Source: Arthrobacter pullicola (GTDB taxonomy: Bacteria; Actinomycetota; Actinomycetes; Actinomycetales; Micrococcaceae). From it: a stretch of 64,000 bases of DNA. Position 1 is the first letter of the stretch. Every line of letters starts with the position of its first letter. A program made the position numbers and the translations under genes. Location: contig NZ_JACSQC010000006.1 in the NCBI RefSeq assembly GCF_014836875.1, forward strand, positions 1 to 64,000, read 5' to 3'. The notes beneath the pieces are model-generated. The model was not told the DNA's origin and searched no databases. It saw nothing but the letters and a program-made list of their open reading frames with translations. Positions 354 through 62,972 of this stretch are shown in pieces.

Positions 354-3300
354 CTACTGCTTGGGCGTCAGGTACAGCACACCGAGCGGCGGCAACCGGA
401 GCTCAGCGGAGGCCGGCTGGCCTTCGAACGCACCTTCGGCCGCCGTCACCGCTCCCAGATTGCCGACACCGGATCCGCCGAACTCCGCGGCATCCGTATT
501 CAGCCGCTCCTCCCATTCCCCGGCCCACGGCAGGCCAACCCGGAACTGCTCGTGGGGAGCGCCGGCGAAGTTGGCGATGCACACCAGCGGATTTCCCTGA
601 TGGTCCCACCGGATAAAGGACAGGACGTTGCGGGCGCCGTCGTTCTCATTGATCCACTGGAACCCGGCCGGCTCGTTGTCCCGGTCATAGAGTGCGGGGG
701 TCTGCCGGTAGATACCGTTCAGTTCCCGCACCAGCAGCTGCACGCCTCGGTGCTGGGGAGTCTCGGTGAGATACCAGTCCAGCCCGTACTGTTCGGACCA
801 CTCGGCTTCCTGGCCAAACTCTGTTCCCATAAACAGGAGCTGCTTGCCGGGATGCGCCCATTGGAAGGCCAGGTAGGCACGCACATTTGCCAGCTGCTGC
901 CACCGGTCCCCCGGCATTTTGCGCAGCAGTGATCCTTTTCCATGCACTACTTCGTCATGGCTGATGGGCAGCAGGAAGTTCTCGGTAAAGGCGTACACCA
1001 GCGAGAAGGTGAGCTTGGAGTGGTGGTACATCCGGTTGATCGGGTCCTCGGACATGTACTCGAGGGTGTCGTTCATCCAGCCCATGTTCCATTTCAGGCC
1101 GAAACCGAGCCCGCCGGTGCTGGTTGGTGAGGTAACACCGGGGAAGGCCGTGGATTCCTCGGCGATCATGACGATGCCGGGCACCCGGCGGTACGCCGTG
1201 GCGTTGACCTCCTGCAGGAACGAAATCGCTTCGAGGTTCTCCCTTCCGCCGAAGGCGTTGGGCCGCCATTGATCGGCCGGCCGGGAGTAGTCCAGGTACA
1301 GCATGGAGGCGACGGCATCCACGCGCAGGCCGTCAATGTGGAATTCCTCCAGCCAGTAGATGGCGTTGGCCACCAGGAAGTTGCGCACTTCCCTGCGCCC
1401 GTAGTCGAAGATCAGCGTTCCCCAGTCGGGCTGCTCGCCGCGCATCGGGTCCGGGTGCTCGTACAGCGGCTGCCCGTCGAAGTTCGCGAGCGCCCAGGAG
1501 TCCTTCGGAAAGTGGCCCGGGACCCAGTCGAGGATGACACCGATCCCGGCCTGGTGCAGGGTGTCGACCAGATAGCGGAAGTCATCCGGGTGCCCGAACC
1601 GGGCGGTCGGAGCGAAGTAGCTGGTGATCTGGTAGCCCCAGGACCCGCCGAAGGGATGCTCGGCCACCGGCATGAACTCCACGTGGGTGAATCCCTGCCA
1701 GGTGACATACTCCGCCAGCTGCTTCGCCAGCTCCCGGTAGTCCAGGCCCAGCCGCCATGAGCCGAGGTGCACCTCATAGACGCTCATCGGTGAGTTGTGC
1801 GGGTCCCGCTGCGCGCGTGCCTGCATCCAGTCCTGGTCCTCGAAGCGGTACGTGGACTCAACAACCCGGGAACCGGTTAGCGGCGGTGCTTCCGTCCCCT
1901 TGGCCAGCGGATCGGCCTTTTCCCGCCACACCCCGTCCTGGCCGAGGATCTCGAACTTGTAGCGCGCACCCGGCTCCACATCGGGGATGAAGATCTCCCA
2001 CACCCCGGAGCTGCCCAGCGACCGCATCGCATGGATCCGCCCGTCCCATCCGTTGAAATCGCCTTCGACACGGACGGCCTGCGCGTTCGGTGCCCACACG
2101 GCGAAACTGACACCGTCCACCTCGCCGAGGACGGACTTGTAGTGGTGCGGATTGGCGCCGAGCACGGTCCACAGCTTCTCGTGCCTTCCCTCGCCGATCA
2201 GATGCAGGTCAATTTCGCCCAGGCTCGGCAGGAACCGGTACGGATCATCCACTGTGGTTGGGGGAAGCCCCTCGTACTCCACCTCGAGCCGGTAGTCCGG
2301 GACCTGGCCCGGCGCGGGGGCCTGCGTAGTACCTGCCCAGATGCCGTTGTACTCGTGGTGCAGGGGCACCCGGCCCTCCGGCGTCACGGCGGTCACTTCG
2401 CGGGCCAGCGGACGCAGGGCGCGGATGGTCACCGTGCCGTGGTCGTCCAGGTGCGCACCCAGGACGGCGTGCGGCTGGTAGTAGGTCCCGTGTGAAACGG
2501 CAGCCAGAACATGCTCCGGAACGGGCAGCGGATCCTTGGCGCCAGCTGAAGCTGCCGGCCCGGCGGCGGCGTCACTGCGCGCAGGCGTCCCCTGCGCTGC
2601 GCCCGCGGACAGCGTGGAACCCGCGGCGTCGTCGGGCTTTGCGGGCTTGGGCTTTGGCTTGGAAAATTCGTTCACGGGGCTCTCTTCCTGAGAATTCATC
2701 GGATCCTGCTGCAACCGGAGTTCTGTGAGCACCTCGCGGGCCGCTGCGGCCGGCACCTCAATCCAGGCGGGGCGGTTGCGGATCTCGTACACGACTTCGT
2801 ACAGGGCCTTGTCCAGCCACAGGGCGCGGAACAGCGGATCCGCGCGGTTGATCTGCGTTCCGGTTTCTTTCTCGTACCCGCGGAGAAACGCATCGGCGGC
2901 AGCCTGCGCCCAGTGTTCGGCCTGGGCGCGGCGCCCGTCAAGGTCGGGTGCCTGCTCGGGACCGGCACCAGCTGTTCCGATGACCGCCACGGCCGCGGCA
3001 TAGTCTATGGAGCGAAGCATGCCGACGACGTCGCGCAGCGCGACATCGGGAACGCTGCGTTCCGCGGCTGGGCGCAGCGGCTCACCTTCGAAGTCCAGCA
3101 CGGTCCAGCCGCGGCCCTCCGAATGCAGGACCTGGCCCAGATGGTAGTCGGCGTGAATGCGCTGCAGGTTCGGCAGCACCTGCAAATCCGCGACGGTGTC
3201 CAGAAGCTGCTCAAGGGTGTCGTCGAAGGGGCCAACATAGCTGCGCGCTTCCTCCCACTCCCACCGGATGCGGCGGACGAGCGAGGCGATGAACTCCTCA

Positions 3301-4142: not shown

Positions 4143-5908
4143 CTCGACGTGGCCTCCGGGGCGAGTATCAACGGGATTGCTTCGGTCTGCGGTGAACTGG
4201 TGTTGGACTTCGGCGAGCGCAGCCGCAGCCAGAAGAAGTCGTGGCTGCCCAAGGTCAGCGTGAGCGATCCATCTTCCCCGAACGCCGGGAAGGGGGTTCC
4301 ACCGAACGCGTCCCGCAGCCCGCGGTTCGCGAATTCCGGCACGCTTACCGTCGCCGCCACCGGATGCTGGGAGAGGTTGAAGATGCAGAACATGGTCTCC
4401 CCCACCTCGCCCTCCGGGTTGTCCTCGGGCAGTTCGCGCAGGAACGCCAGGACGGCTTCGCTGTCGGTTGGAACGTTGCGGTAGGACCCCATGCCGAAGG
4501 AAGGATGGGTCTTCCGGACCATGATCATCTGCCGCATCCAGTGCAGCAGCGAACTGGAACTGGCCAGCTGCGCTTCCACGTTCACGTGGTTGTAGTGGTA
4601 AACCAGCGACTGCACCACCGGCAGGTACACCTTGCCGGGATCGGCGGTGGAGAAACCGGCGTTGCGGTCCGGGTTCCACTGCATGGGTGTTCGTGAAGCG
4701 TCACGGTCTTCCAGCCAGATGTTGTCGCCCATGCCGATTTCGTCCCCGTAGTAGAGGAACGGGCTTCCCGGCAGGGACAGCAGCAGCGCGTGGATCAGTT
4801 CGATCTCCGAGCGCGAGTTGTCCAGCAGGGGCGCGAGCCGGCGCCGGATGCCGATGTTGGCCTGCATCCGGGAATCCGGGGCGTACCAGCCCAGCATGGC
4901 CTGGCGCTCCTCGTTGGTGACCATCTCCAGGGTCAATTCGTCGTGGTTCCGCAGGAAAGTTCCCCACTGCCCGCCCTGCGGGATCTCCGGGGTCTCCTCC
5001 ATGGTCTGCACGATCGGTGCTGCCTTCTGGTCACGCAGCGCGTAGAACAGCCGGGGCATGATCGGGAAGTGGAAGCACATGTGGCACTCGGGCCCGGTTT
5101 CATCCCCGAAGTACTCCACCACCTCGTGCGGCATCTGGTTCGCCTCGGCCACGATCACCCGGCCGGGATAGTTCTCGTCCACCATGGTGCGCAGGTCCTT
5201 CAGGAACCGGTGCGTGGCGGGAAGGTTCTCGCAGTTGGTGCCGTCTTCCTCGAAGAGATAGGGAATGGCATCCGCGCGGAACCCGTCGATCCCCTGGTCC
5301 AGCCAGAAGCGGACGACGTCGAACACTGCCTCGACAACTTTGGGATTCTCAAAGTTCAAGTCCGGCTGGTGGCTGAAGAAGCGGTGCCAGAAGAACTGGC
5401 GCCGGACCGGGTCAAAGGCCCAGTTGGACTCTTCGGTATCCACGAAGATGATCCGGGCGTCTTGATACTTCTGATCGGTGTCGGACCAGACGTAGAAATC
5501 CCCGTACGGACCATCCGGGTCATTCCGTGACTCCTCGAACCACGGATGCTTGTCCGAGGTGTGGTTCAGCGGCAGGTCGATAATGACCCGCAGTCCGCGT
5601 GCATGGGCCTCCGAGACCAGCCGTTTGAAGTCGCTGATGGTGCCGAATTCGTTCAGCACGTCGTAGTAGTCGGAGATGTCATATCCGCCGTCGCGCAGCG
5701 GGGACTTGAAGAACGGAGGCAGCCAGAGGCAGTCGATGCCGAGCCATTGGAGGTAGTCGAGCTGGTCGATCAGGCCGGTGAAATCCCCGCTTCCGTCTCC
5801 GTTGGAGTCCCGGAATCCGCGTACCAGGACCTCGTAGAAGACAGCTTTGCGGTACCAGTTCGGATCGTTGGTGAGGCCGGGTGCATGCAGCTGGAACGGA
5901 TTTACCAT
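4139..5908 (-). CDS. treS: Trehalose synthase (maltose alpha-D-glucosyltransferase)
   Basis: This 589-residue GH13 enzyme interconverts trehalose and maltose, feeding maltose to the kinase encoded next. The N-terminus ([18 protein letters not shown]) is typical of TreS. The catalytic motifs are [11 protein letters not shown] (nucleophile Asp213), [10 protein letters not shown] (Glu255) and [11 protein letters not shown]. The length is close to other stand-alone TreS proteins, and there is no C-terminal kinase because the kinase is fused to GlgB instead. The ATG at 5908 overlaps the glgE stop as TAATG, and the 3' end overlaps the next gene as ATGA, so the three genes are translationally coupled. 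Confidence 0.95.
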
Positions 5909-7959
5909 TAGCGCCCCCTCCGTACCGAGAGGATATGCGCCGGTTCATAGTGGGCATCCAGGCGGACGTAGTTGTACTGGCCCCACCGCCAGCTGGCACC
6001 GCTGATCAGATCGTCAACCCAGAACGTTCCGTCCTCGTTGAAGTCCTGCGGGTCCAGTTCCAGTGCCTCAAGGTCCAGGGTCACTGTGGATTCCCGCGCG
6101 CTGTGGGGATCGGTATTCACGACGATGATGAGTGTGTCCTTACTGCTTGGATCGGATAGCCGGACCTGTTTGTGCTTGGAGTAAACCACCGTCGCCTCGT
6201 CGGTGCTCGAGTGGACCGTCAGGTTCTGGAGATCTCCCAGGGCCGGGTGCGACCGGCGGATCTGGTTGAGCCTGGTGACGTACGGGGCCAGGCTCCTGTC
6301 CGCTGCTTCGGCGGCGGCGAAGTCCCGCTGTTTGTACTCGAACTTCTCGTTGTCCAGGTACTCCTCAGCGCCGGGCCGGGCGACATGTTCGTAGAGCTCG
6401 AACCCGGCGTACATGCCCCACAGCGGGCTGGCGGTCGAGGCCAGCACGGCCCGGATCTTGAAGGCGGGCGGGCCGCCGTACTGCAAAAATTCGGTCAGGA
6501 TATCCGGGGTGTTCACAAAGAAGTTCGGCCGGAAGAAGGCGGCCGTTTCCTGCGAGACCTCCGTGAAGTACTCCTCGAGCTCAGCGCGGGTGTTCCGCCA
6601 CGTGAAGTAGGTGTAGGACTGCTGGAACCCCGCCATGCCAAGTGCGTGCATCATCGGTGGACGGGTAAACGCCTCAGCCAGGAAAACGACGTCGGGATGC
6701 TGGCGGTTCACCGTGGTGATCAGCCACTCCCAGAAGCGCAGCGGCTTGGTATGCGGATTGTCGACCCGGAAAATCTTCACCCCGTGGCTGATCCACATCA
6801 GCACGATCCGCAGGATTTCCGCGGAGAGGCCCTCGTAGTCGTTATCGAAGTTCAGCGGATAAATATCCTGGTATTTCTTCGGCGGATTCTCTGCGTAGGC
6901 AATCGTCCCGTCGACACGGGTGGTAAACCACTCGGGATGCTCAGTGACCCAGGGATGATCCGGCGACGCCTGCAGCGCCAGGTCGATCGCGACGTCGAGC
7001 CCCAGCCCGGCCGCCGTGTGGACAAAGTGGTCGAAGTCCTCGAAGGTGCCCAAATCCGGGTGCAGGGCGTCGTGCCCTCCCTCCGCCGCCCCGATGGCCC
7101 AGGGTGAGCCGGGGTCCTGCGGGCCGGCAACCAGGGTGTTGTTCGGGCCTTTGCGGTGCGTGGTGCCGATCGGGTGGACCGGAGGCAGGTAGATGACGTC
7201 GAAGCCCATGGCAGCGACCCGGTCCAGGCTGCGGGCGGCGGTACGGAAGGTCCCGGAGGTCCAGGATGCCGTTGCCGGGTCGAAGACCGCACCTTCTGAC
7301 CGGGGGAAGAACTCGTACCACGCGCCGCGTCCGGCCCGGTCCCGTTCCACCTTGACCGGGAACCGCGGTGAGGAGGTCACGAGGTCCCGGATCGGTTCGC
7401 GGTCCAGCACTCCGATCAGTTCAGCCTTGCCGGCAGCGGCCAGCCGCGCGTGGGGATCAACGGCGGTGTCGCCCAGCACCCGGGCCGTGCCGCGGAGGAC
7501 ATCCGCGTCCGCCTCGCTCCGGCCCTCCGCCGCGGCGGTGAACAGGGCAGCGCCTTCGGCGAGCATCAGCTCGACGTCGACTCCCGCAGCGATCTTCACC
7601 TCGGCGTTGTGGTGCCAGGTTCCATAGAGGTCCGCCCACCCCTCGACCGCGAACGTATAGTCCCCTGTGGCTTCCGGGCGGAGCAGCCCCTTCCACCGGT
7701 CCAGGCCCTGTCCCACCGGCTGCATGCGGTGGCGCTGGACCTCCTGCCCGGACGGGTCATAGAGCACTGCCGTGACCCCGACCAGGTCATGGCCCTCCCG
7801 GAAGACCGTGGCCCCGATCACGAGGTCCTCTCCCGGGACGGCTTTGGCTGCAAATCGGCCGCACTCGATCACCGGGGACACGTTAACGATCGGAATCCGG
7901 CCAAACCGGAGTTCCGTGACGGGCTGGACATCAGATGACAACGCGCTGGAAGTGGTCAC
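5908..7959 (-). CDS. glgE: Alpha-1,4-glucan:maltose-1-phosphate maltosyltransferase
   Basis: GlgE (683 residues) transfers maltose from maltose-1-phosphate to the non-reducing end of an alpha-glucan. Visible motifs are YEFFPRSEGA and GFDVIYLPPVHPIG in the catalytic barrel, FRVDNPHTKP (nucleophile Asp400) and VFLAEAFTRPPMM (acid/base Glu429). The N-terminal beta-domain with RFGRIPIVNVSPVIECGRF is typical of the family. It is the first gene of the operon glgE-treS-mak/glgB. The GTG start lies 7 bases after a TAACGT box and has no Shine-Dalgarno, so the message is probably leaderless. Confidence 0.95.
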   Translation of the reverse strand: MTTSSALSSDVQPVTELRFGRIPIVNVSPVIECGRFAAKAVPGEDLVIGATVFREGHDLVGVTAVLYDPSGQEVQRHRMQPVGQGLDRWKGLLRPEATGDYTFAVEGWADLYGTWHHNAEVKIAAGVDVELMLAEGAALFTAAAEGRSEADADVLRGTARVLGDTAVDPHARLAAAGKAELIGVLDREPIRDLVTSSPRFPVKVERDRAGRGAWYEFFPRSEGAVFDPATASWTSGTFRTAARSLDRVAAMGFDVIYLPPVHPIGTTHRKGPNNTLVAGPQDPGSPWAIGAAEGGHDALHPDLGTFEDFDHFVHTAAGLGLDVAIDLALQASPDHPWVTEHPEWFTTRVDGTIAYAENPPKKYQDIYPLNFDNDYEGLSAEILRIVLMWISHGVKIFRVDNPHTKPLRFWEWLITTVNRQHPDVVFLAEAFTRPPMMHALGMAGFQQSYTYFTWRNTRAELEEYFTEVSQETAAFFRPNFFVNTPDILTEFLQYGGPPAFKIRAVLASTASPLWGMYAGFELYEHVARPGAEEYLDNEKFEYKQRDFAAAEAADRSLAPYVTRLNQIRRSHPALGDLQNLTVHSSTDEATVVYSKHKQVRLSDPSSKDTLIIVVNTDPHSARESTVTLDLEALELDPQDFNEDGTFWVDDLISGASWRWGQYNYVRLDAHYEPAHILSVRRGR

Positions 7960-31789: not shown

Positions 31790-32035
31790 CTATTCGGCGT
31801 CCGGCCGGCGGGCGCTGAGCAATGCCTTGATGCGCTCTTCTGCGTCGGGGACATCGGCGGTGGCTGCTACGTTGGCCTCTTCCACAGCGCGCACCACCTC
31901 GTTGCGCTGGATTCTTACTCCGCGCGGGGCATCAATGCCGATGCGGACACCGTCGCCGCGTGAATCGAGCACGGTAATGACAATGTCATCCCCAATCAGG
32001 ATCTGTTCTCCTGATTTCCGCGTTAACACGAGCAT
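31790..32035 (-). CDS. csrA: Carbon storage/flagellin translation regulator CsrA
   Basis: CsrA (81 residues) is an RNA-binding dimer that recognises GGA in hairpin loops. The N-terminus MLVLTRKSGEQILIGDDI and the GVRIGIDAPRGVRIQRNEV segment carry the conserved RNA-contacting residues. The C-terminal tail of about 20 residues is longer than in E. coli and resembles flagella-linked CsrA that binds FliW. It is the last gene of the fliM-to-csrA run, after a gap of 64 bases. The probable targets are the fliC and flgB leaders described below. Confidence 0.95.
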   Translation of the reverse strand: MLVLTRKSGEQILIGDDIVITVLDSRGDGVRIGIDAPRGVRIQRNEVVRAVEEANVAATADVPDAEERIKALLSARRPDAE

Positions 32036-49948: not shown

Positions 49949-51552
49949 ACCCGCTGCCCCTCATCCATGAAGTTACGCAGGTAATCCGCGGTGCGGACCG
50001 GGTCCTGAAGGGCGAGGTGGTCAAGTTCTTCGAGTTTGCGTTCGGAGTCCGCGGCGTTGGCCACGATGCGGAGCGATGCCGTGTCAACCGCCGGTTCCAG
50101 GGCTTTCTTGACCGGTTCCTGCCCAATCATTGCCAGACCGGCCGGCGGGGCCAGCGGATCAAGCTCGGGCAGGATGCCGATGTCCACGGATTGGCGGTTC
50201 TGCCGGCGGGACCGCAGGGCGTAGGCGACCAGGGCCAGGATGACGGCCAGGACGATTCCTGCGGCCAGGATGCTGGTGCGCAGCAGTTCAGCGCGCCGTT
50301 CGGCTTCCTCGGCGGCTTCGGCTGCCGCAAGGGCCTCCTGCGCAGCCTCGGCTCCGCTGGCGTTGAAGGCAACCATTTCCACGGTCAGTTCATCCCCGCG
50401 GGCTTCGTTGATGCCGGCGGCGTTGGCCACCAGGGCGCGGAGGTCCGCTACGTTCATACCCGCTGCGGTGGCGGAGTTCAGGGCAACGGAGATGGTCTGG
50501 CGGTTGAGCGCGCCGGCAGGGATGTCGCGGGTCTCGGTGACCTTGTTGACGGCGTTGTTCTTGGTGCTGGATTCGGAGGTGTAGTTGCCGTCGTCGTTTC
50601 CGCCGTCGGGCACTGCAATGTTGTCCGGTCCCAGGATGCCGGCGGCGGTGTTGCCGTTGCCGCCGGCGTATTCCTCGGTGGTGGTGGCTTCGTTCAGCGC
50701 CGGGTTGCCCTCCGGGTTGGTGAAGGTTTCCTCCACCCGGTTGGCGGATTCGTAACTCATGTCCGCAGCGACGGCCACGGTGGCATTGCCGGGGCCAACC
50801 ACGCGGTCAAGCATGCCCTGGACGGAGGCGGAGATCCGCTGCTCGTAGTCCGTGGCCTGCTTGTCTGCCGTACCCGTGGCGCCAACGCCGACGGCGGAAA
50901 GGACGGTCCCGGACGCGTCGATGACCGCCACGTTGGTGGCCTTCATCCCGTCAATTGCCGCAGAGGTGAGGTGGACGATCGCCTGGACCTGGTCTCCGGT
51001 CAGCGTGACTCCGTTCTCCGTCTCGATGAACACGGAGGCCGTGGGGTCCACCTTTTCCGAGACAAAAACTGTCTCTTCGGGGAGGGCAAGCTGCACGGAA
51101 GCGGTTTTTACGCCGTTGAGCGCACCGACGGTTTTCGCCAGTTCGCCTTCGAGGGCGCGCTTGTAGGTCACGGACTGCTGGAATTCGGAGGACGTGACGC
51201 CCATGTTGTCCAGCAGCGAATAGCCTCCGGTGGAGGAGGCCGGCAGCCCGGCACCGGCAGCCTTCAGCCGCTGGTTATATACGTGCTGTTCCGGCACCAT
51301 GATGGTGCCGCCGCCCGCAGCGATCTCGTAGGGCACGCCGTCGGCCTGGAGCTGCTCGACGATGGTGTTGGCGTCAGAGGCCTGCAGCCCGGAGAACAGC
51401 GGCGTGTAGGAAGGCTTGGTGGCCCAGCTGGCCAGGGCGAAGATTCCCAGGGCCAGGACGGCGATGCCGATCAGTGCCAGCGTCTTCTGCGCCAGGGTGA
51501 ACTGGCCGATGGTTTTTCCCAGACGGCCGAAAGCCGCGTTCACCTGCGTCAT
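49945..51552 (-). CDS. fliF: Flagellar MS-ring protein FliF
   Basis: FliF (535 residues) forms the membrane ring. An N-terminal membrane helix (TLALIGIAVLALGIFALASWA) and a C-terminal one (ILAAGIVLAVILALVAYAL, about 430-450) flank the periplasmic ring-building domains (YTPLFSGLQASDANTIVEQL, VTYKRALEGELAKTV). The cytoplasmic tail after residue 455 contains the FliG-binding segment ending DYLRNFMDEGQRV. ATGA overlap with fliE. Confidence 0.96.
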   Translation of the reverse strand: MTQVNAAFGRLGKTIGQFTLAQKTLALIGIAVLALGIFALASWATKPSYTPLFSGLQASDANTIVEQLQADGVPYEIAAGGGTIMVPEQHVYNQRLKAAGAGLPASSTGGYSLLDNMGVTSSEFQQSVTYKRALEGELAKTVGALNGVKTASVQLALPEETVFVSEKVDPTASVFIETENGVTLTGDQVQAIVHLTSAAIDGMKATNVAVIDASGTVLSAVGVGATGTADKQATDYEQRISASVQGMLDRVVGPGNATVAVAADMSYESANRVEETFTNPEGNPALNEATTTEEYAGGNGNTAAGILGPDNIAVPDGGNDDGNYTSESSTKNNAVNKVTETRDIPAGALNRQTISVALNSATAAGMNVADLRALVANAAGINEARGDELTVEMVAFNASGAEAAQEALAAAEAAEEAERRAELLRTSILAAGIVLAVILALVAYALRSRRQNRQSVDIGILPELDPLAPPAGLAMIGQEPVKKALEPAVDTASLRIVANAADSERKLEELDHLALQDPVRTADYLRNFMDEGQRV

Positions 51553-56117: not shown

Positions 56118-57454
56118 TTGCTGCCCGAGTTGGAGCTATTGAGCGCAGCCAGCTGGCCGGTCAGCCAGTCCTGCTGGGTCTGCAGCTGGCTGAGTTTCAC
56201 TTCAAGGTTCCCCCAGATCAGTTTGAGCGTGGATTCACGGCTGGCCAGCCGGCGGTCCCAATCTTCGATCTGGGTGTTCAACGCTTTGAGCACCGACTCC
56301 TGGCCGGTGATCCGCTGGGTGATGAGGCCGTCATACTTGTCCGAGGCCACTTTGCCGGCGGCCTCAACGCGGCCTGCGATGACCTGCAAGGCGGCCTGGG
56401 TCTTCACCGGGTCGGCTTCCATGGCCGCCGCGAACTTCTCGGCATCGAACTCGACGGTGCCGTCTTTAGTGATGACGACGCCGATCTCCGACGGTGAGCG
56501 GCCGTCCAGCGGTGAGGTGGCGGCTTCCATCAGCTGGCGCTTAATGTCCCGGATGCCGGCATCGCCGGTAAACAGTCCACCAGAGGCGCTGCTGCTGCCG
56601 GAACTGGTGGAGACCGAAACCGCACTGTTCTTATTGATGAAGGCAAACACATCGGCCAGTCCTGCGACCAGGTCTGCGGCGACCTTGGAAATGGCTTCAT
56701 CGTCCCGGGCAACGGTCAGGGTAACGGCGGTGTTGGCCGGCGTATTGGCCGCCAGGGTGATATCCACCCCGGGCATCAGGCCCTTGAAAGTATTGGTGGA
56801 AGAGGTGATCTCCTGCGCGGCCGGGGTGCCGGCCCAGAGGGTGAGCTTGGCATCCTGACCCGGTTTGAGGACGTCCAATGCCCCGCCATCCAGGCTGGCA
56901 GTGAAGGCACCTTCGGTTCCGGTCTTCGTCGCAGTGAACTGCACCCGATACTGCTGGACACCGTCAACGCTGCCAGTGGCGATTTTGACTCCGGTGACGC
57001 CGAGGTTGGCCTTGTTCACCTCGCTGATGACTTCATCCATGGATTTGTCCGTGGTGTCGAAGGAGGTGGTGGTTCCATTCGCGGAGATGGCCAACACGCT
57101 CGCCGATGGCCAGGCTGCCATGGCTTTGGAGAGTGAGACCTGTGCGGTGGCGGTCTGGGTCACGGAGACATCCAGCGAGCCCGCTGCCGCTCCAGCACCG
57201 ATTGTGGTGGTGACCTTGTCTGAACTGCTGGTGGCCATATAGAGGTCGGTTCCGGCAGGTTTGGCCGTCTTGGAGGCAGCTTCGGCCAGGGAGGCGATCT
57301 TGGCGTTCAGCGACTGCAGCGCCGTGGTGAAGAGCTGGGTGGTCGTGACTTTGTTCTTGAGCAGCAGCTGCGGCCGGGCTTCGATGTCCATAAGCTGCTT
57401 GATCATCTCGGTGGTCTTGATACCGCTGATGATCCCGTCGATGCCTAGCGCCAT
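56114..57454 (-). CDS. fliD: Flagellar filament cap protein FliD
   Basis: FliD (446 residues) caps the filament. The N-terminal IDGIISGIKTTEMIKQLMDIEARP and the C-terminal coiled coil (DGLITQRITGQESVLKALN, DWDRRLASRESTLKLIWGNLE) match the family. The central head contains several Ala/Thr-rich beta stretches. AGGAG ribosome site. It lies 193 bases after fliC, with a hairpin between. Confidence 0.94.
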   Translation of the reverse strand: MALGIDGIISGIKTTEMIKQLMDIEARPQLLLKNKVTTTQLFTTALQSLNAKIASLAEAASKTAKPAGTDLYMATSSSDKVTTTIGAGAAAGSLDVSVTQTATAQVSLSKAMAAWPSASVLAISANGTTTSFDTTDKSMDEVISEVNKANLGVTGVKIATGSVDGVQQYRVQFTATKTGTEGAFTASLDGGALDVLKPGQDAKLTLWAGTPAAQEITSSTNTFKGLMPGVDITLAANTPANTAVTLTVARDDEAISKVAADLVAGLADVFAFINKNSAVSVSTSSGSSSASGGLFTGDAGIRDIKRQLMEAATSPLDGRSPSEIGVVITKDGTVEFDAEKFAAAMEADPVKTQAALQVIAGRVEAAGKVASDKYDGLITQRITGQESVLKALNTQIEDWDRRLASRESTLKLIWGNLEVKLSQLQTQQDWLTGQLAALNSSNSGSK

Positions 57455-57526
57455 GCCGATGCTCCTAAAAGGTGTCCCTCCGGTGCCACCGGGAGGTCTT
57501 GGTAAAACACTTCAGGCAGGGAACGG

Positions 57527-57572
57527 GCTGGCGGGAAAAGTGTGAGGTCCAAGTCATTCTTCTCCCGCCAGC
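57527..57572 (-). terminator. Hairpin between fliC and fliD
   Basis: Fourteen-base arms (57527-57540 and 57559-57572, core GCTGGCGGGA, one G-U pair) with an 18-base loop lie 75 bases after the fliC stop. A smaller near-palindrome (CCTCCGGTGCCACCGGGAGG, 57478-57497) follows. They probably reduce read-through from fliC into fliD. Confidence 0.5.
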
Positions 57573-57647
57573 GGCCATTCACCTGCCGGTCAAGCGGTTA
57601 GTGCTTGTGCGGTGCTGCCGGGGGCCGCACCGCGGATGAATCCGCTA

Positions 57648-58511
57648 TTACTGCAGGAGCTGCATCACGCCGGAGTTCATCTGGTTGGCCTGGGCCAGCA
57701 TTGCGGTAGCGGCCTGGGAGAGGATCTGGGACTTGGTGAAGTTACCCATTTCCGCTGCCATGTCGGTGTCGCGGATGCGGGAGTTGGCGGCCGAGAGGTT
57801 CTCGACAGACACCGCGATGGAGCGTGCGGTGGATTCCAGGCGGTTCTGCTGTGCACCCAGGTCTGCGCGCGCTCCGGAAACAGCCGTGATGTGCGTATCC
57901 AGAGTTTCAATGGCCGCGGAGGCCAGGACCTGGTTTGCAGGCTGGTCAGCGCCCACGGTGATGTCGATACCCTTCACAGCGGTAGCTACTGCTTCAATGT
58001 CGGTCAGCGTGATGGTGATTTCGTTGGTCGCAGCCGCATTGCCTTCCGAACCGACCTGGATCTTCAGCGCATTGGCCGGCAGGGACGCAGCATTCGTCAG
58101 CAGGTTGATGCCGTTGAAGTTGGTTCCCTTTGCGATGCGGTCCAGCTCACCACCCAGTGCGGTGATTTCCTTCTGGATGGCCGTACGAGACTCGCTATTG
58201 TTCGTAGCACTCGCGCCCTGTACGGACAGGTCACGAACGCGGTTCAGGATGTTGTGCACCTCAGTCAGGGCGCCTTCAGCGGTCTGGATGAGGCTGATGC
58301 CGTCCTGCGCGTTGCGGCCAGCCTGGGTCAGGCCGGAGATCTGATTCTTCAGGCCTTCGGAGATAGCCAGACCGGCAGCATCGTCAGCCGCACGGTTGAT
58401 GCGCAGACCGCTGGAGAGGCGCTCCACCGACTTGGCCTGGTTCGCCTGGTTCAGGTTCAGGTTACGCATCGCGTTGAGCGACGAGGTGTTAGTTGCAATT
58501 GTGAAACCCAT
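57648..58511 (-). CDS. fliC: Flagellin
   Basis: This short flagellin (287 residues) has the conserved N-terminal D0/D1 (TNTSSLNAMRNLNLNQ, SVERLSSGLRINRAADDAAG, NILNRVRDLSVQGA) and C-terminal D1/D0 (LGAQQNRLESTARSIAV, NSRIRDTDMAAEMGNFTKSQIL). Only about 60 residues lie between, so D2/D3 are essentially missing. The RBS GGAGG is 8 bases before the ATG within a predicted CsrA site. It is expressed from a FliA-type promoter. Confidence 0.97.
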   Translation of the reverse strand: MGFTIATNTSSLNAMRNLNLNQANQAKSVERLSSGLRINRAADDAAGLAISEGLKNQISGLTQAGRNAQDGISLIQTAEGALTEVHNILNRVRDLSVQGASATNNSESRTAIQKEITALGGELDRIAKGTNFNGINLLTNAASLPANALKIQVGSEGNAAATNEITITLTDIEAVATAVKGIDITVGADQPANQVLASAAIETLDTHITAVSGARADLGAQQNRLESTARSIAVSVENLSAANSRIRDTDMAAEMGNFTKSQILSQAATAMLAQANQMNSGVMQLLQ

Positions 58512-58519
58512 GATGAATT

Positions 58520-58563
58520 CCTCCGTGAGTGGGCGATAACTACGAGGCCCATCCGTGGGCCTC
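58520..58563 (-). promoter_or_regulatory. Predicted CsrA-binding leader of fliC
   Basis: On the minus strand GAGGCCCA/TGGGCCTC (58556-58563 with 58544-58551, 8 bp) has apical CGGA (58552-58555); read as a hexaloop it is C-ACGGAU-G, 7 of 8 bases of the known CsrA core CARGGAUG. A second site, CACGGAGG (58520-58527), is the Shine-Dalgarno itself. This copies the layout of the B. subtilis hag leader. Confidence 0.7.
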
Positions 58564-58572
58564 TACCCGTAG

Positions 58573-58599
58573 TTATCGACCCTCCCTGCGCGGGTGTTA
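58573..58599 (-). promoter_or_regulatory. FliA-type promoter of fliC
   Basis: Minus-strand CTAAC (TAAC at 58596-58599) - 15 bases - GTCGATAA (58573-58580). The predicted start point near 58566 gives a leader of about 55 bases that begins just before the GGA hairpin. Confidence 0.65.
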
Positions 58600-58657
58600 G
58601 GAATTCAGGAAAGTTATTTCCGGTCTTTTGAGACCTGAGACACAGCAGCTGCAGTAA

Positions 58658-59587
58658 TTAGGACACAGCAGTGTTCAGCAGGCCGTGTCCACCCGGGGCA
58701 GCGAACCCGGTGGGATGGAAATGCGGGTCGTGGCGGGTGAGCCCGCCGGCAGTCCATTCCGCCACCGAGGACAGGTAGGCGTTCCGCCGGGCCGGGGAAA
58801 TCCGGGACTCAATCGGAGCCGGGGTGCCGGTATCCGAGTAATGGGTACCCAGACCGTCGCGCAGCAGGCGGACCGCTTCGGCGCGCTGCTGGGAGACCGC
58901 GGAGTGGGTAGCTCCCAGCTCAGCGGCCAGCTCCTTCACGGACCGGTCATGGAAGTAGACCTGCTCCACGATGTAGCGCATCTTCTCCGGCAGGGCAGCG
59001 ACAGCTGCCCGCAGATACTTCATATTCTCGGCATTCAATACCGAGCCTTCCGGCGACGGCAGGTCGCTGACCAGGGAATCTGAGGCGGCATCATCAAGGT
59101 GGGACACAGTGCGTGAGGCGTCCGACAGGGCGTCCTCGGCGGTACTGCGGTCAACACCCAGGGCAGAAGCAATTTCATCGACCTTCGGGCTCCGTCCGAG
59201 CGCCCCAGTCAGAGCTTCCTTTACTGCCAGTGTTTCCTTGATGCGTTTCCGTGCCGTCCGGGTAGCCCAGTCGTTCGAGCGCATCTCGTCGGCGAAAGCG
59301 CCAACGATGCGCCGGCGCGCGTACGCACCGAAGGGCACACCCAGCTCCGCATTAAACGAGTCAGCAGACGTGATCAGGGCTATTGCCCCGACCGATGCCA
59401 AATCGTCCCGGGAGAGATGTGTCACCTTGGCACACACCTCTGAGACCAGATATCCGACCAGCGGTAAGTTCTCCACAACCAGCCGGTTGCGTTCTTCACG
59501 ATTCAAAATATGGACCCCCAAGTCCTTGTTCCCCAACAAAATACGCTTGCCGTTAGGACAGAGGCTGAGTCCTCCGGGAGATTCCAT
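58658..59587 (-). CDS. fliA: Flagellar sigma factor FliA (sigma-28 type)
   Basis: The sigma factor shows region 2 (ENLPLVGYLVSEV, HLSRDDLASVGAIALITSADSF, RRRIVGAFADEMRSNDWATRT), region 3 (RKRIKETLAVKEALTGALGRSP, IASALGV) and region 4 (LPEKMRYIVEQVYFHDRSVKELAAEL with ATHSAVSQQRAEAVRLLRDGL). The start is uncertain: the ATG at 59587 gives 309 residues; a TTG at 59506 (NREERNRLVVENLP, 282 residues, GGGGG upstream) matches family N-termini better; an ATG at 59611 is also open. It is divergent from flgN and presumably reads all CT(A/T)AC-N15-GCCGATAG promoters here. Confidence 0.88.
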   Translation of the reverse strand: MESPGGLSLCPNGKRILLGNKDLGVHILNREERNRLVVENLPLVGYLVSEVCAKVTHLSRDDLASVGAIALITSADSFNAELGVPFGAYARRRIVGAFADEMRSNDWATRTARKRIKETLAVKEALTGALGRSPKVDEIASALGVDRSTAEDALSDASRTVSHLDDAASDSLVSDLPSPEGSVLNAENMKYLRAAVAALPEKMRYIVEQVYFHDRSVKELAAELGATHSAVSQQRAEAVRLLRDGLGTHYSDTGTPAPIESRISPARRNAYLSSVAEWTAGGLTRHDPHFHPTGFAAPGGHGLLNTAVS

Positions 59588-59616
59588 ACTTTGGCGTAAT
59601 ACGTGCAACATACCAC

Positions 59617-59643
59617 TAACATTGGTAGTGCAACCGCCGATAG
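59617..59643 (+). promoter_or_regulatory. FliA-type promoter of flgN-flgK-flgL-fliW
   Basis: CTAAC (TAAC at 59617-59620) - 15 bases - GCCGATAG (59636-59643). The leader to the flgN ATG is about 120 bases and holds several GGA triplets, including GCAGGATGTG and the Shine-Dalgarno GCAGGAGGTG, but not in obvious hairpin loops. Confidence 0.65.
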
Positions 59644-59768
59644 GTGTGTCTGACGGATTAAAAGTTTTTCGGCCTGTGAAGGCGGGTGTCTTGAAACCGT
59701 TGCAGGATGTGATTCCGCATCCATCGGAAGACAAAACACTCGCGTAGACCGCAGGAGGTGAGCTAGAC

Positions 59769-60254
59769 ATGGGTACCCAGAAACTGTCCGCATTACTCTG
59801 GGAAGAACGGGAGCTGTTGGAGCTCCTGACCTTCAAGCTCGAGGAAGAACAGCTGCTCCTGACCTCAGGGAAAACGCGCTGGCTCCAGCACGCCACCCGG
59901 GAAGTGGAGCAGGTCCTTGACCGCCTGCGAATCGCGAATCTGGCCAGGACGGTGGCCGTTTCCGAACTCGCGGAGGAGTGGGGCATAGCCGAAGATGCAA
60001 CTCTTCGGCAGATCATTGCCGCCGCGCCTCCAGGACCGTGGACTGAGATTTTCACGGCCCATCTTCAGGCAATGACGGAACTTACCGTGAGGATCCGCGA
60101 CCTGCGGGACACGAACGAACAGTTCCTCCGTACGGCTGCGCGTTCCGCCCAGGAAACCCTCGCGGGCCTGGGCACGGAGAGCAAAACGTACACCTCCAGC
60201 GGCAACTCTGCCGGCCCGGGGAACAGCGCCCGCATAGTGGACAAGCAACTCTAG
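59769..60254 (+). CDS. flgN: Flagellar hook-filament junction chaperone FlgN
   Basis: FlgN (161 residues) is the export chaperone of FlgK and FlgL, encoded next. It is nearly all helical: LSALLWEERELLELLTFKLEEEQLLL, RWLQHATREVEQVLDRLR, LTVRIRDLRDTNEQFLRTAA are characteristic. Strong ribosome site GGAGGTGAG. Confidence 0.88.
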   Translation: MGTQKLSALLWEERELLELLTFKLEEEQLLLTSGKTRWLQHATREVEQVLDRLRIANLARTVAVSELAEEWGIAEDATLRQIIAAAPPGPWTEIFTAHLQAMTELTVRIRDLRDTNEQFLRTAARSAQETLAGLGTESKTYTSSGNSAGPGNSARIVDKQL

Positions 60255-61686: not shown

Positions 61687-62577
61687 GTGATTTCCCGTAC
61701 CTCGAACCTGACGCTGACGCGAAACGCCCAGCAGAACCTGCAGGCGAACATCTCCCGGCTGGCCAAGCTCCAGGAGCAGGCACAGACCTCGGCCGCCATC
61801 ACCCGGCCGTCGGACAATCCTTCGGGCACCGCCGACGCCCTGAAGGTCCGCGGCGAGATCCGCGCCAACGCACAGTACAAAAGCAACATCGCCGATGCGA
61901 ACAGCTGGCTCGCCACCGTCGATGCCGCTATGACCCGCGCGACGGACATCCTCACCCGGATCAAGGACCTGGCAATCACCGGCGCAACGGCGACTGCCAC
62001 CCCGGCCAACAAGGCCGCCATCGCCACCGAGCTGGAAGGCCTGAAAGCGGACCTGCTGGCGCAGGCCAACACCTCCTACCTGGGCCGGAATATTTTTGCC
62101 GGGAACTCCGACGCGGGGGCCGCAGTCAAAGTGGATTCCACTGTCGACCCGGCAACCTACACCTTCACGGGTGCCGCTGACGGACCAGTGACCCGGCGGC
62201 TGGATGCGAACACCACGGTCCAGGTTGATGCCAGCGCAGCAGCTGTCTTCGGCGACGTCTTTACCAAGCTGGATTCCCTGGTTGCCGATTTGCGGACCAA
62301 CGGGGACATCAGCGGACACCTGTCCGGCATCGATGCGAGCAGGGACAATGTGCTCTCGCAGCAGACCGACGTCGGCATCCGCCATGCCCGTGTGCTGAAA
62401 GCAGAGGAAAACAACATGGAGCAGGCAGTCAGTTTGGAATCCCGGCGCTCCGGCATCGAGGACCTGGACACCGCGCAGGTCATCATGGACCTGAAACTTC
62501 AGGAACTGGCGTACCAGTCCTCCCTGGCCGTCACGGCCAAGGTCCTGCAGCCCACCCTGATGGATTTCCTGCGATGA
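61687..62577 (+). CDS. flgL: Hook-associated protein 3 FlgL
   Basis: FlgL (296 residues) is the second junction protein and looks like a flagellin end to end: RTSNLTLTRNAQQNLQANIS, ITRPSDNPSGTADALKVR, LDTAQVIMDLKLQELAYQSS, VLQPTLMDFLR. GTG start 3 bases after flgK; overlaps fliW by ATGA. Confidence 0.95.
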   Translation: MISRTSNLTLTRNAQQNLQANISRLAKLQEQAQTSAAITRPSDNPSGTADALKVRGEIRANAQYKSNIADANSWLATVDAAMTRATDILTRIKDLAITGATATATPANKAAIATELEGLKADLLAQANTSYLGRNIFAGNSDAGAAVKVDSTVDPATYTFTGAADGPVTRRLDANTTVQVDASAAAVFGDVFTKLDSLVADLRTNGDISGHLSGIDASRDNVLSQQTDVGIRHARVLKAEENNMEQAVSLESRRSGIEDLDTAQVIMDLKLQELAYQSSLAVTAKVLQPTLMDFLR

Positions 62578-62972
62578 GCACCGTGACGCCGGTGGTTTTC
62601 CTCACCCCTCCCCCGGGACTCGAACCCATCACAGCGTTCGATCTGGCCGATGTGGATGGGGCCACCGGATTGTACTCGCTGACCGGCGCGGACGTTTCCG
62701 CCGGGCAGCGCCGCTTCTATGCGATTGATGCCTCCGTGTACCTGCCCGACTACAACCCGGAAATTGCCGACGAGCAGGCGGCCCAGCTGGGCCTCCAGGA
62801 TCCGGCCGATGCCCGTGTCCTGGTGGTAGCCAACCCGTCCGACGGCGGCACCACCGTGAATCTGCTGGCCCCGGTCATCATCAACACACGGACCTGGCAG
62901 TGCGCACAGGTCATCCTGGAAGGCGGCGACTGGCCGCTGCGGGCTCCGTTGGAAGCCAACGCTGCAGCCTGA
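62574..62972 (+). CDS. fliW: Flagellar assembly factor FliW (CsrA antagonist)
   Basis: FliW (132 residues) binds flagellin or CsrA; free flagellin releases FliW-bound CsrA control. The signature TVNLLAPVIINTRTWQCAQVIL and the start FLTPPPGLEPITAFDL match FliW. It ends the flgN-flgK-flgL operon. With csrA at the far end of the cluster the regulatory pair is complete. Confidence 0.93.
   Translation: MSTVTPVVFLTPPPGLEPITAFDLADVDGATGLYSLTGADVSAGQRRFYAIDASVYLPDYNPEIADEQAAQLGLQDPADARVLVVANPSDGGTTVNLLAPVIINTRTWQCAQVILEGGDWPLRAPLEANAAA

Follow-up and report, generated by a model that had tools for sequence, protein, structure and literature searches.

The fliC locus of Arthrobacter pullicola

The window considered here, i.e., the whole analysed stretch of 64,000 nucleotides at positions 1 to 64,000 of contig NZ_JACSQC010000006.1 of Arthrobacter pullicola (RefSeq assembly GCF_014836875.1), contains the genes for flagellin, for a putative flagellar sigma factor and for the two proteins, CsrA and FliW, that form the subject of this analysis:

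57648-58511, minus strand: fliC, flagellin, with Flagellin_N and Flagellin_C domains
58658-60055, minus strand: open reading frame just upstream of fliC, with a FliA/WhiG-like sigma factor in residues ~186-404 (sigma-70 regions 2 and 4 over the Pfam cut-offs)
31790-32035, minus strand: csrA, 81 aa, with L4, R44, V51 and N55 in its translation (PF02599; NCBIfam CsrA over its cut-off)
62574-62972, plus strand: fliW, 132 aa (PF02623, E 3.7e-20, over the cut-off)

The limits given for the sigma factor gene are those of the open frame, and the best NCBIfam match of this frame is to FliA_WhiG (E 9.9e-35, below the curated cut-off). Downstream of fliC lies fliD, and flgN, flgK, a FlgL-like flagellin-domain gene and fliW are on the opposite strand. 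FliW of the window falls under the cut-offs of all seven NCBIfam FliW models listed. The initial annotation had placed csrA and fliW in one cluster with fliC; both genes are in the window, but they are not adjacent, being ~30 kb apart on opposite strands.

Architecture of the fliC leader

The features of the fliC leader, listed from the predicted promoter to the start codon, are as follows:

58596-58599, minus strand: predicted -35 core TAAC, 15 nt 5' of the -10 box (from the sequence; present in many relatives)
58573-58580, minus strand: predicted FliA-type -10 box GTCGATAA (box-to-loop spacing constant in relatives)
58535-58577, minus strand: 9-bp lower stem, 58535-58543 pairing with 58569-58577 (fold of 58490-58620)
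58544-58563, minus strand: BS1, hairpin GAGGCCC-ACGGAT-GGGCCTC, predicted high-affinity CsrA site (sequence, fold, and covariation over 74 distinct homologous hairpins)
58551-58556, minus strand: BS1 loop ACGGAT, its GGA at 58552-58554 (sequence; loop pattern in 94 leaders)
58520-58527, minus strand: BS2, CACGGAGG, Shine-Dalgarno sequence and predicted second CsrA site, GGA at 58522-58524 (sequence; CAC-GGAG comparison)
58509-58511, minus strand: fliC start codon ATG (from the sequence)

That the leader carries a hairpin with GGA in its loop, and a second GGA at the Shine-Dalgarno sequence, had been proposed in the initial annotation, and both elements are borne out, the former by the sequence and by RNAfold as BS1 (loop ACGGAU, 58544-58563) and the latter as CACGGAGG at 58520-58527. 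For BS1, RNAfold (58566-58509) predicts a stem of 8 bp and a CGGA tetraloop; written as C-ACGGAU-G, the same element is a 7-bp stem with a hexaloop. Sixteen nucleotides separate the BS1 hairpin from BS2, for which the predicted fold of the window leader shows weak pairing at most, and the distance from the GGA of the loop to that of the Shine-Dalgarno sequence is 27 nt. The fliC coding sequence opens with ATGGGT. A reading of BS1 as a terminator or attenuator was discarded, as no U run follows the hairpin on its 3' side in the sequence.

By itself, the hairpin of the window is only modestly improbable, i.e., moderately unusual but not extreme. The fold of the leader has a z of -1.44, with 18 of 200 shuffles equally stable. 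The motif CANGGANG, which we take to be the consensus of CsrA sites, occurs with a stem of at least 7 bp twice in the window, the second time at 51094 on the plus strand, and in 100 simulated windows such hairpins number 0.24 on average and never more than 2. A much stronger case for something more than chance lies in the conservation and covariation of the element among relatives.

Conservation and covariation in related leaders

Eighty named loci and 25 fliC copies from the same genus (105 loci) yielded 95 distinct leaders, one of them from the window itself. Many come from close strains or are repeated copies within one genome. Exact duplicates were excluded (several named and unnamed loci share one contig), as were nine loci in which the computed fliC start was other than ATG, GTG or TTG (L059, L060, L065, L067, L068, L072, L074, L075 and L081). 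Within -75 to -21, CANGGANG is found in 93 of the 95 related leaders, as compared to 64 of 1900 dinucleotide shuffles, and a GGA stands in the loop of a hairpin of the minimum free energy (MFE) fold in 85 of them, as compared to 425 of 1900 shuffles; the MFE fold lacks such a loop in 10 of the 95. The loop itself reads CA[C/T]GGA[C/T/A]G in 93 of 94 anchored leaders and TACGGAAG in L041, an invariance that is partly by construction, since this alignment was anchored on the GGA motif (on the one with the longest stem where there were several), whereas the 93/95 count of CANGGANG is independent of the anchoring. The loop positions that do vary coincide with the two N positions of CANGGANG.

The stem varies in a different manner, by exchange of pairs. 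Over 74 distinct 26-mers, and with pair counts that the anchoring tilts slightly towards pairing, 88.2% of the cells of the 8-pair stem are paired (shuffled mean 64.1). Kinship among the sequences inflates the covariation counts, which include 126 cells altered on both sides and seven of eight pairs with such changes; the plain count of pairs is the less striking signal (shuffled mean 5.8, and seven reached by 6 of 500 shuffles) and is weaker than the covariation score of 0.568, for which the shuffled mean is 0.159 and which none of 500 shuffles reached. When the partner column is slid by 1 to 3 columns the score falls to at most 0.170. The initial annotation had named compensatory stem changes under an invariant loop GGA in related leaders as a check, and such changes are present, with CANGGANG kept in all but two of the leaders. 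From the GGA of the loop to that of the Shine-Dalgarno sequence the spacing is 18-45 nt across the 94 leaders.

The context of BS2 was also compared between flagellin genes and others. Among mechanically called open frames of at least 150 codons, CAC precedes a Shine-Dalgarno GGAG in nine of nine fliC genes of the genus set versus one of 77 other long frames with a GGAG Shine-Dalgarno sequence. In a second group of loci (L010-L054), 33 flagellins have CAC-GGAG, as do 11 of the 214 other frames; the latter figure becomes 8 of 208 without the flagellins of L041, L047, L049, L050, L051 and L054, which the filter had missed, and six of these eight are one gene in six Microbacterium loci. Some Microbacterium leaders (L034, L036, L039, L040, L042 and L045) have tandem hairpins 5' of the Shine-Dalgarno sequence, with loops CACGGAYG and CAGGACG, and the L010 leader has the same tandem with altered stem bases; in all seven loci the leader precedes position 5001. 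Both hairpins appear in the centroid fold of the L036 leader (z -3.19), and together with the Shine-Dalgarno sequence they may constitute a possible three-site CsrA operator.

Two further observations were made in these loci. The Shine-Dalgarno context of fliD, GTACAAGGAGCA, is CsrA-site-like in L002, L003 and L006 (fliD starts at ~6076-6125) and does not occur in the window. In the Bacillota flagellin leaders of L067, L068, L074, L075 and L081, which are outside the counts given above, GGA-loop hairpins can be seen by eye 5' of the Shine-Dalgarno sequence.

The promoter and the 5' end of the RNA

A GCCGATAG-like box was found in 68 of the 94 leaders and lies 13-16 nt 5' of the loop C in 63 of these 68; a match to the box is absent from the other 26, and in one Microbacterium group of these TCGCGAA stands instead. 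Sigma-28 promoters have a 7-nt gap from the -10 box to +1. Measured from the predicted box of the window, the fliC transcript would start at ~58565, upstream of 58556. In 81 distinct leaders, pairs 2 to 8 counted outward from the loop covary (z 4.0 to 11.3) and pairs 9 to 18 show little covariation (z -2.7 to 2.7), so that the end of the conserved helix coincides with the RNA start predicted from the promoter, and two separate lines of evidence agree.

The 5' arm of the 9-bp lower stem overlaps the predicted -10 box, and the lower stem should therefore be absent from mRNA made from the fliC promoter. As a part of that RNA it was rejected, both for this overlap and because the pairs past the eighth are unconserved. 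Transcripts that read through from the upstream sigma factor gene could contain the lower stem (58535-58577), which is perhaps of relevance to them.

An inverted repeat that extends into a -10 box, as the 9-bp extension does here, might be thought to act at the level of DNA, as the operator of a transcription regulator that merely mimics an RNA hairpin. We consider this extremely unlikely, in that the stem bases vary as pairs while the fixed part is an asymmetric loop, and in that the extension is unconserved and the conserved helix stops where the RNA is predicted to start. The position of the hairpin at the predicted extreme 5' end would also suit a stabiliser of the mRNA or a shield against RNase, in which the GGA is incidental. 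Such a device needs no fixed loop, yet CANGGANG persists in 93 of 95 leaders while its N positions and the stem vary, and CsrA and FliW are encoded in nearly every flagellin-bearing genome sampled (see below); as the main role of the hairpin, stabilisation is thus very improbable, and it may be a side function of what we read as a CsrA site.

Specificity of the hairpin and its wider distribution

A covariance model of the BS1-type hairpin (R1) was applied to 71 sources (785 kb in all), namely the window plus 70 named loci out of the 80 (L059, L060, L065, L067, L068, L072, L074, L075, L081 and L077 were left out). With an E limit of 0.05 it gave 80 matches, every one of them in a fliC leader; since R1 was built from most of the matched leaders, these match by construction and the informative part is the lack of other matches. 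The fliC leaders of L041 and L080 were missed. On 29 genomes of the genus, with 150 of 2437 to 3040 first-look candidates scored per genome, the fliC leader heads the listed matches of each of the 24 flagellated genomes, by a narrow margin over a match outside fliC in G004 and G014 (E 0.0018 and 0.0020 versus 0.0013). Of 13 non-fliC matches that were checked by open frames, most overlap such frames or resemble terminators. A second conserved leader of the CsrA type was not seen among the listed matches of the 29 genomes, in a search that leans on fliC stems and would miss others. L233 and L234 share a hairpin near base 995, with loop ACGGA; on the opposite strand a 235-aa frame begins there.

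In the genome of A. pullicola itself the fliC leader matches at E 2.7e-4 and the next match listed has an E of 0.10, so that no other strong hairpin of the type stands out. This bears on the suggestion that the hairpin is mainly a sponge, by which flagellin mRNA, being abundant, draws CsrA away from its other targets. In C. jejuni, CsrA has the flaA mRNA as its main target and can also be titrated by it (PMC4894983), and the second GGA hairpin of some Microbacterium leaders would be in keeping with such a role; the lack of other outstanding hairpins here, and a site over the Shine-Dalgarno sequence, which implies local repression, make it very improbable as the principal function. No Rfam family matched the leader (57000-60000 against 4227 families, E up to 5), the four sub-threshold matches all lying at 57491-57588, and the hairpin element could therefore be a candidate for inclusion in Rfam.

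Further afield, a strong GGA-loop hairpin, i.e., one with a score of at least 15, a limit set after the distant leaders had been seen, precedes the flagellin gene in 26 of 52 distant flagellin-bearing genomes and in 32 of 69 leaders, as compared to 100 of 2760 shuffled leaders; it was not found in the other 26 genomes. These 52 are drawn from 60 flagellin-bearing genomes, and not every flagellin copy in each is represented. A few of the strong hairpins are unlike the CANGGANG type, and several distant genomes have a GGA in the Shine-Dalgarno sequence only, as in GACACGGAGGTC.

CsrA and FliW among the Actinomycetota

FliC, CsrA and FliW are common to the same 24 of the 29 genus genomes and missing from the same five, which is weak evidence of a functional tie, as it may reflect the loss of one cluster. 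In a sample of 396 genomes of the phylum, flagellin was found in 60, CsrA in 80 and FliW in 60, and of the 60 flagellin-bearing genomes 59 have CsrA and 58 have FliW. The sole flagellin-bearing genome without CsrA, G214, has fliW 537 bases from a contig end, and the sample offers no natural experiment on flagellated, CsrA-less cells. One genome, G329, has flagellin and a CsrA with R55, and neither a FliW match nor a strong hairpin (n=1).

The CsrA residues were surveyed in 76 of the 80 CsrA-bearing phylum genomes and 8 more genus genomes (G152, G158, G195 and G354, and second copies in G105 and G044, were left out). R44, an RNA-binding residue, is present in all 90 copies, that of the window included. 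N55 is present in 65 of 70 copies from FliW-bearing genomes versus one of 20 from genomes without a FliW match (Fisher p 5.5e-14, with ancestry ignored). The five copies without N55 in FliW-bearing genomes are second copies, and in each case the other copy has N55; this split within single genomes argues against mere ancestry and ties the N55 type of CsrA to FliW. The lone N55 copy without a FliW match is that of G239, a fragmented genome with flagellin. In C. jejuni, FliW contacts CsrA at V51 and N55, and a change from N to D at the latter position blocks FliW binding in B. subtilis (PMC7829508). The window CsrA has both of these contact residues (V or I at 51, N at 55). The split at position 55 would provide a simple way to tell FliW-controlled CsrA from FliW-free CsrA.

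The CsrA copies of the 20 genomes without a FliW match (L245-L264), 18 of which are also without a flagellin match, mostly have R, Q, G or another non-N residue at position 55. In one of them, L263 (G409:C23:61293-61598), a single 149-aa frame matches CsrA twice and is perhaps a tandem CsrA fusion.

A proposed switch for flagellin synthesis

The RNA element, its covariation and its link to fliC, together with the CsrA residues and the co-occurrence, were computed here. We think it highly likely that the fliC leader is a two-site CsrA operator belonging to the known CsrA-FliW-flagellin homeostasis switch, in this instance in the Actinomycetota, and the hairpin, kept as it is by matching base changes, is very probably part of a real switch against flagellin excess. 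The stem covariation, the loop motif, the RNA start predicted upstream of 58556, the co-occurrence and the FliW-contact residues all speak for the homeostatic control of flagellin by CsrA and FliW that the initial annotation had suggested, and of the refuting conditions set there, those that could be examined by computation did not arise.

The steps of such a switch, i.e., CsrA binding, bridging, repression and antagonism by FliW, are modelled on B. subtilis and C. jejuni. The FliA-type promoter would start transcription near 58565, giving an mRNA with the BS1 hairpin at its 5' end. One face of a CsrA dimer would sit on the GGA of the BS1 loop and the other, 27 nt away, on the GGA of BS2, and CsrA on the Shine-Dalgarno sequence would block the ribosome. 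FliW would bind CsrA beside its RNA face (V51, N55) and the mRNA would be released; cytoplasmic, unexported flagellin would in turn bind FliW and repression would be restored, such that flagellin synthesis would track flagellin export. CsrA can bridge sites that are 10 to 63 nt apart, and does so best above 18, and the SELEX consensus for CsrA is RUACARGGAUGU, with the GGA mostly in hairpin loops (PMC7652899). Both the 27 nt of the window and the 18-45 nt of the related leaders are inside the bridging range, and the predicted BS1 loop resembles the SELEX consensus.

A broader proposal, which we consider less likely than not, is that the FliW-coupled N55 type of CsrA in the Actinomycetota is close to a one-target regulator, the 5'-terminal covarying hairpin (doubled in some Microbacterium to make a three-site operator) marking flagellin mRNA alone and the CsrA:FliW ratio being set otherwise than by coupling, and that relatives without FliW keep an uncoupled CsrA (often R/Q/G55) for other targets. 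The comparative evidence would extend to a third phylum the flagellin homeostasis by CsrA and FliW that has been worked out in the Bacillota and the Campylobacterota, and the switch could be tested in motile strains of Arthrobacter or Microbacterium. This is in line with a suggestion made in PMC4894983, by which the flagellar function of CsrA-FliW came first.

Comparison with known systems

The initial annotation described such control as known mainly from Firmicutes and epsilon-proteobacteria, which stands with the qualification that, for the Actinobacteria, the half that concerns the Shine-Dalgarno site had already been proposed. In 2008, a CsrA site overlapping the Shine-Dalgarno sequence was suggested for the flagellin gene of Kineococcus radiotolerans by similarity to BS2 of B. 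subtilis hag, the two agreeing in 9 of 12 bases and csrA being in a motility island; in the part of that paper at hand, the suggestion consists of the BS2 match, without a hairpin site, covariation or FliW (PMC2587704). CsrA and FliW are among the proteins searched for in a 2023 paper on actinobacterial flagella (PMC10746217). No paper on CsrA control of actinobacterial flagellin was found beyond the Kineococcus proposal, in a search mostly outside subscription journals.

The B. subtilis hag leader has two CsrA sites of which one is over the Shine-Dalgarno sequence (PMC7652899, PMC2587704), much as is predicted for the fliC leader described here, and, as in the hag system, FliW and a CsrA with N55 are present in the window. 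The arrangement of the genes differs. In B. subtilis, fliW and csrA adjoin, are translationally coupled and thereby give a CsrA:FliW ratio near 1:1 (PMC6529632), whereas an adjacent, coupled fliW-csrA operon is not found in the window; because the two genes are some 30 kb apart on opposite strands, coupling of the B. subtilis type cannot operate here, and the CsrA:FliW ratio would be set in some other way.

C. jejuni flaA (PMC4894983) offers a second parallel, with a 45-nt leader whose GGA-loop stem-loops, one of them over the ribosome-binding site, show compensatory changes similar to those seen here. The two flaA sites are both reported in stem-loops, whereas little or no pairing is predicted for BS2 of the window, and the GGA at codon 2 of flaA is not seen in the window fliC, with its ATGGGT. 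Transcription of flaA needs sigma-28, and a FliA-type promoter is predicted for fliC; likewise, csrA and fliW are not adjacent in Epsilonproteobacteria, C. jejuni included (PMC4894983), just as they are separated in A. pullicola.
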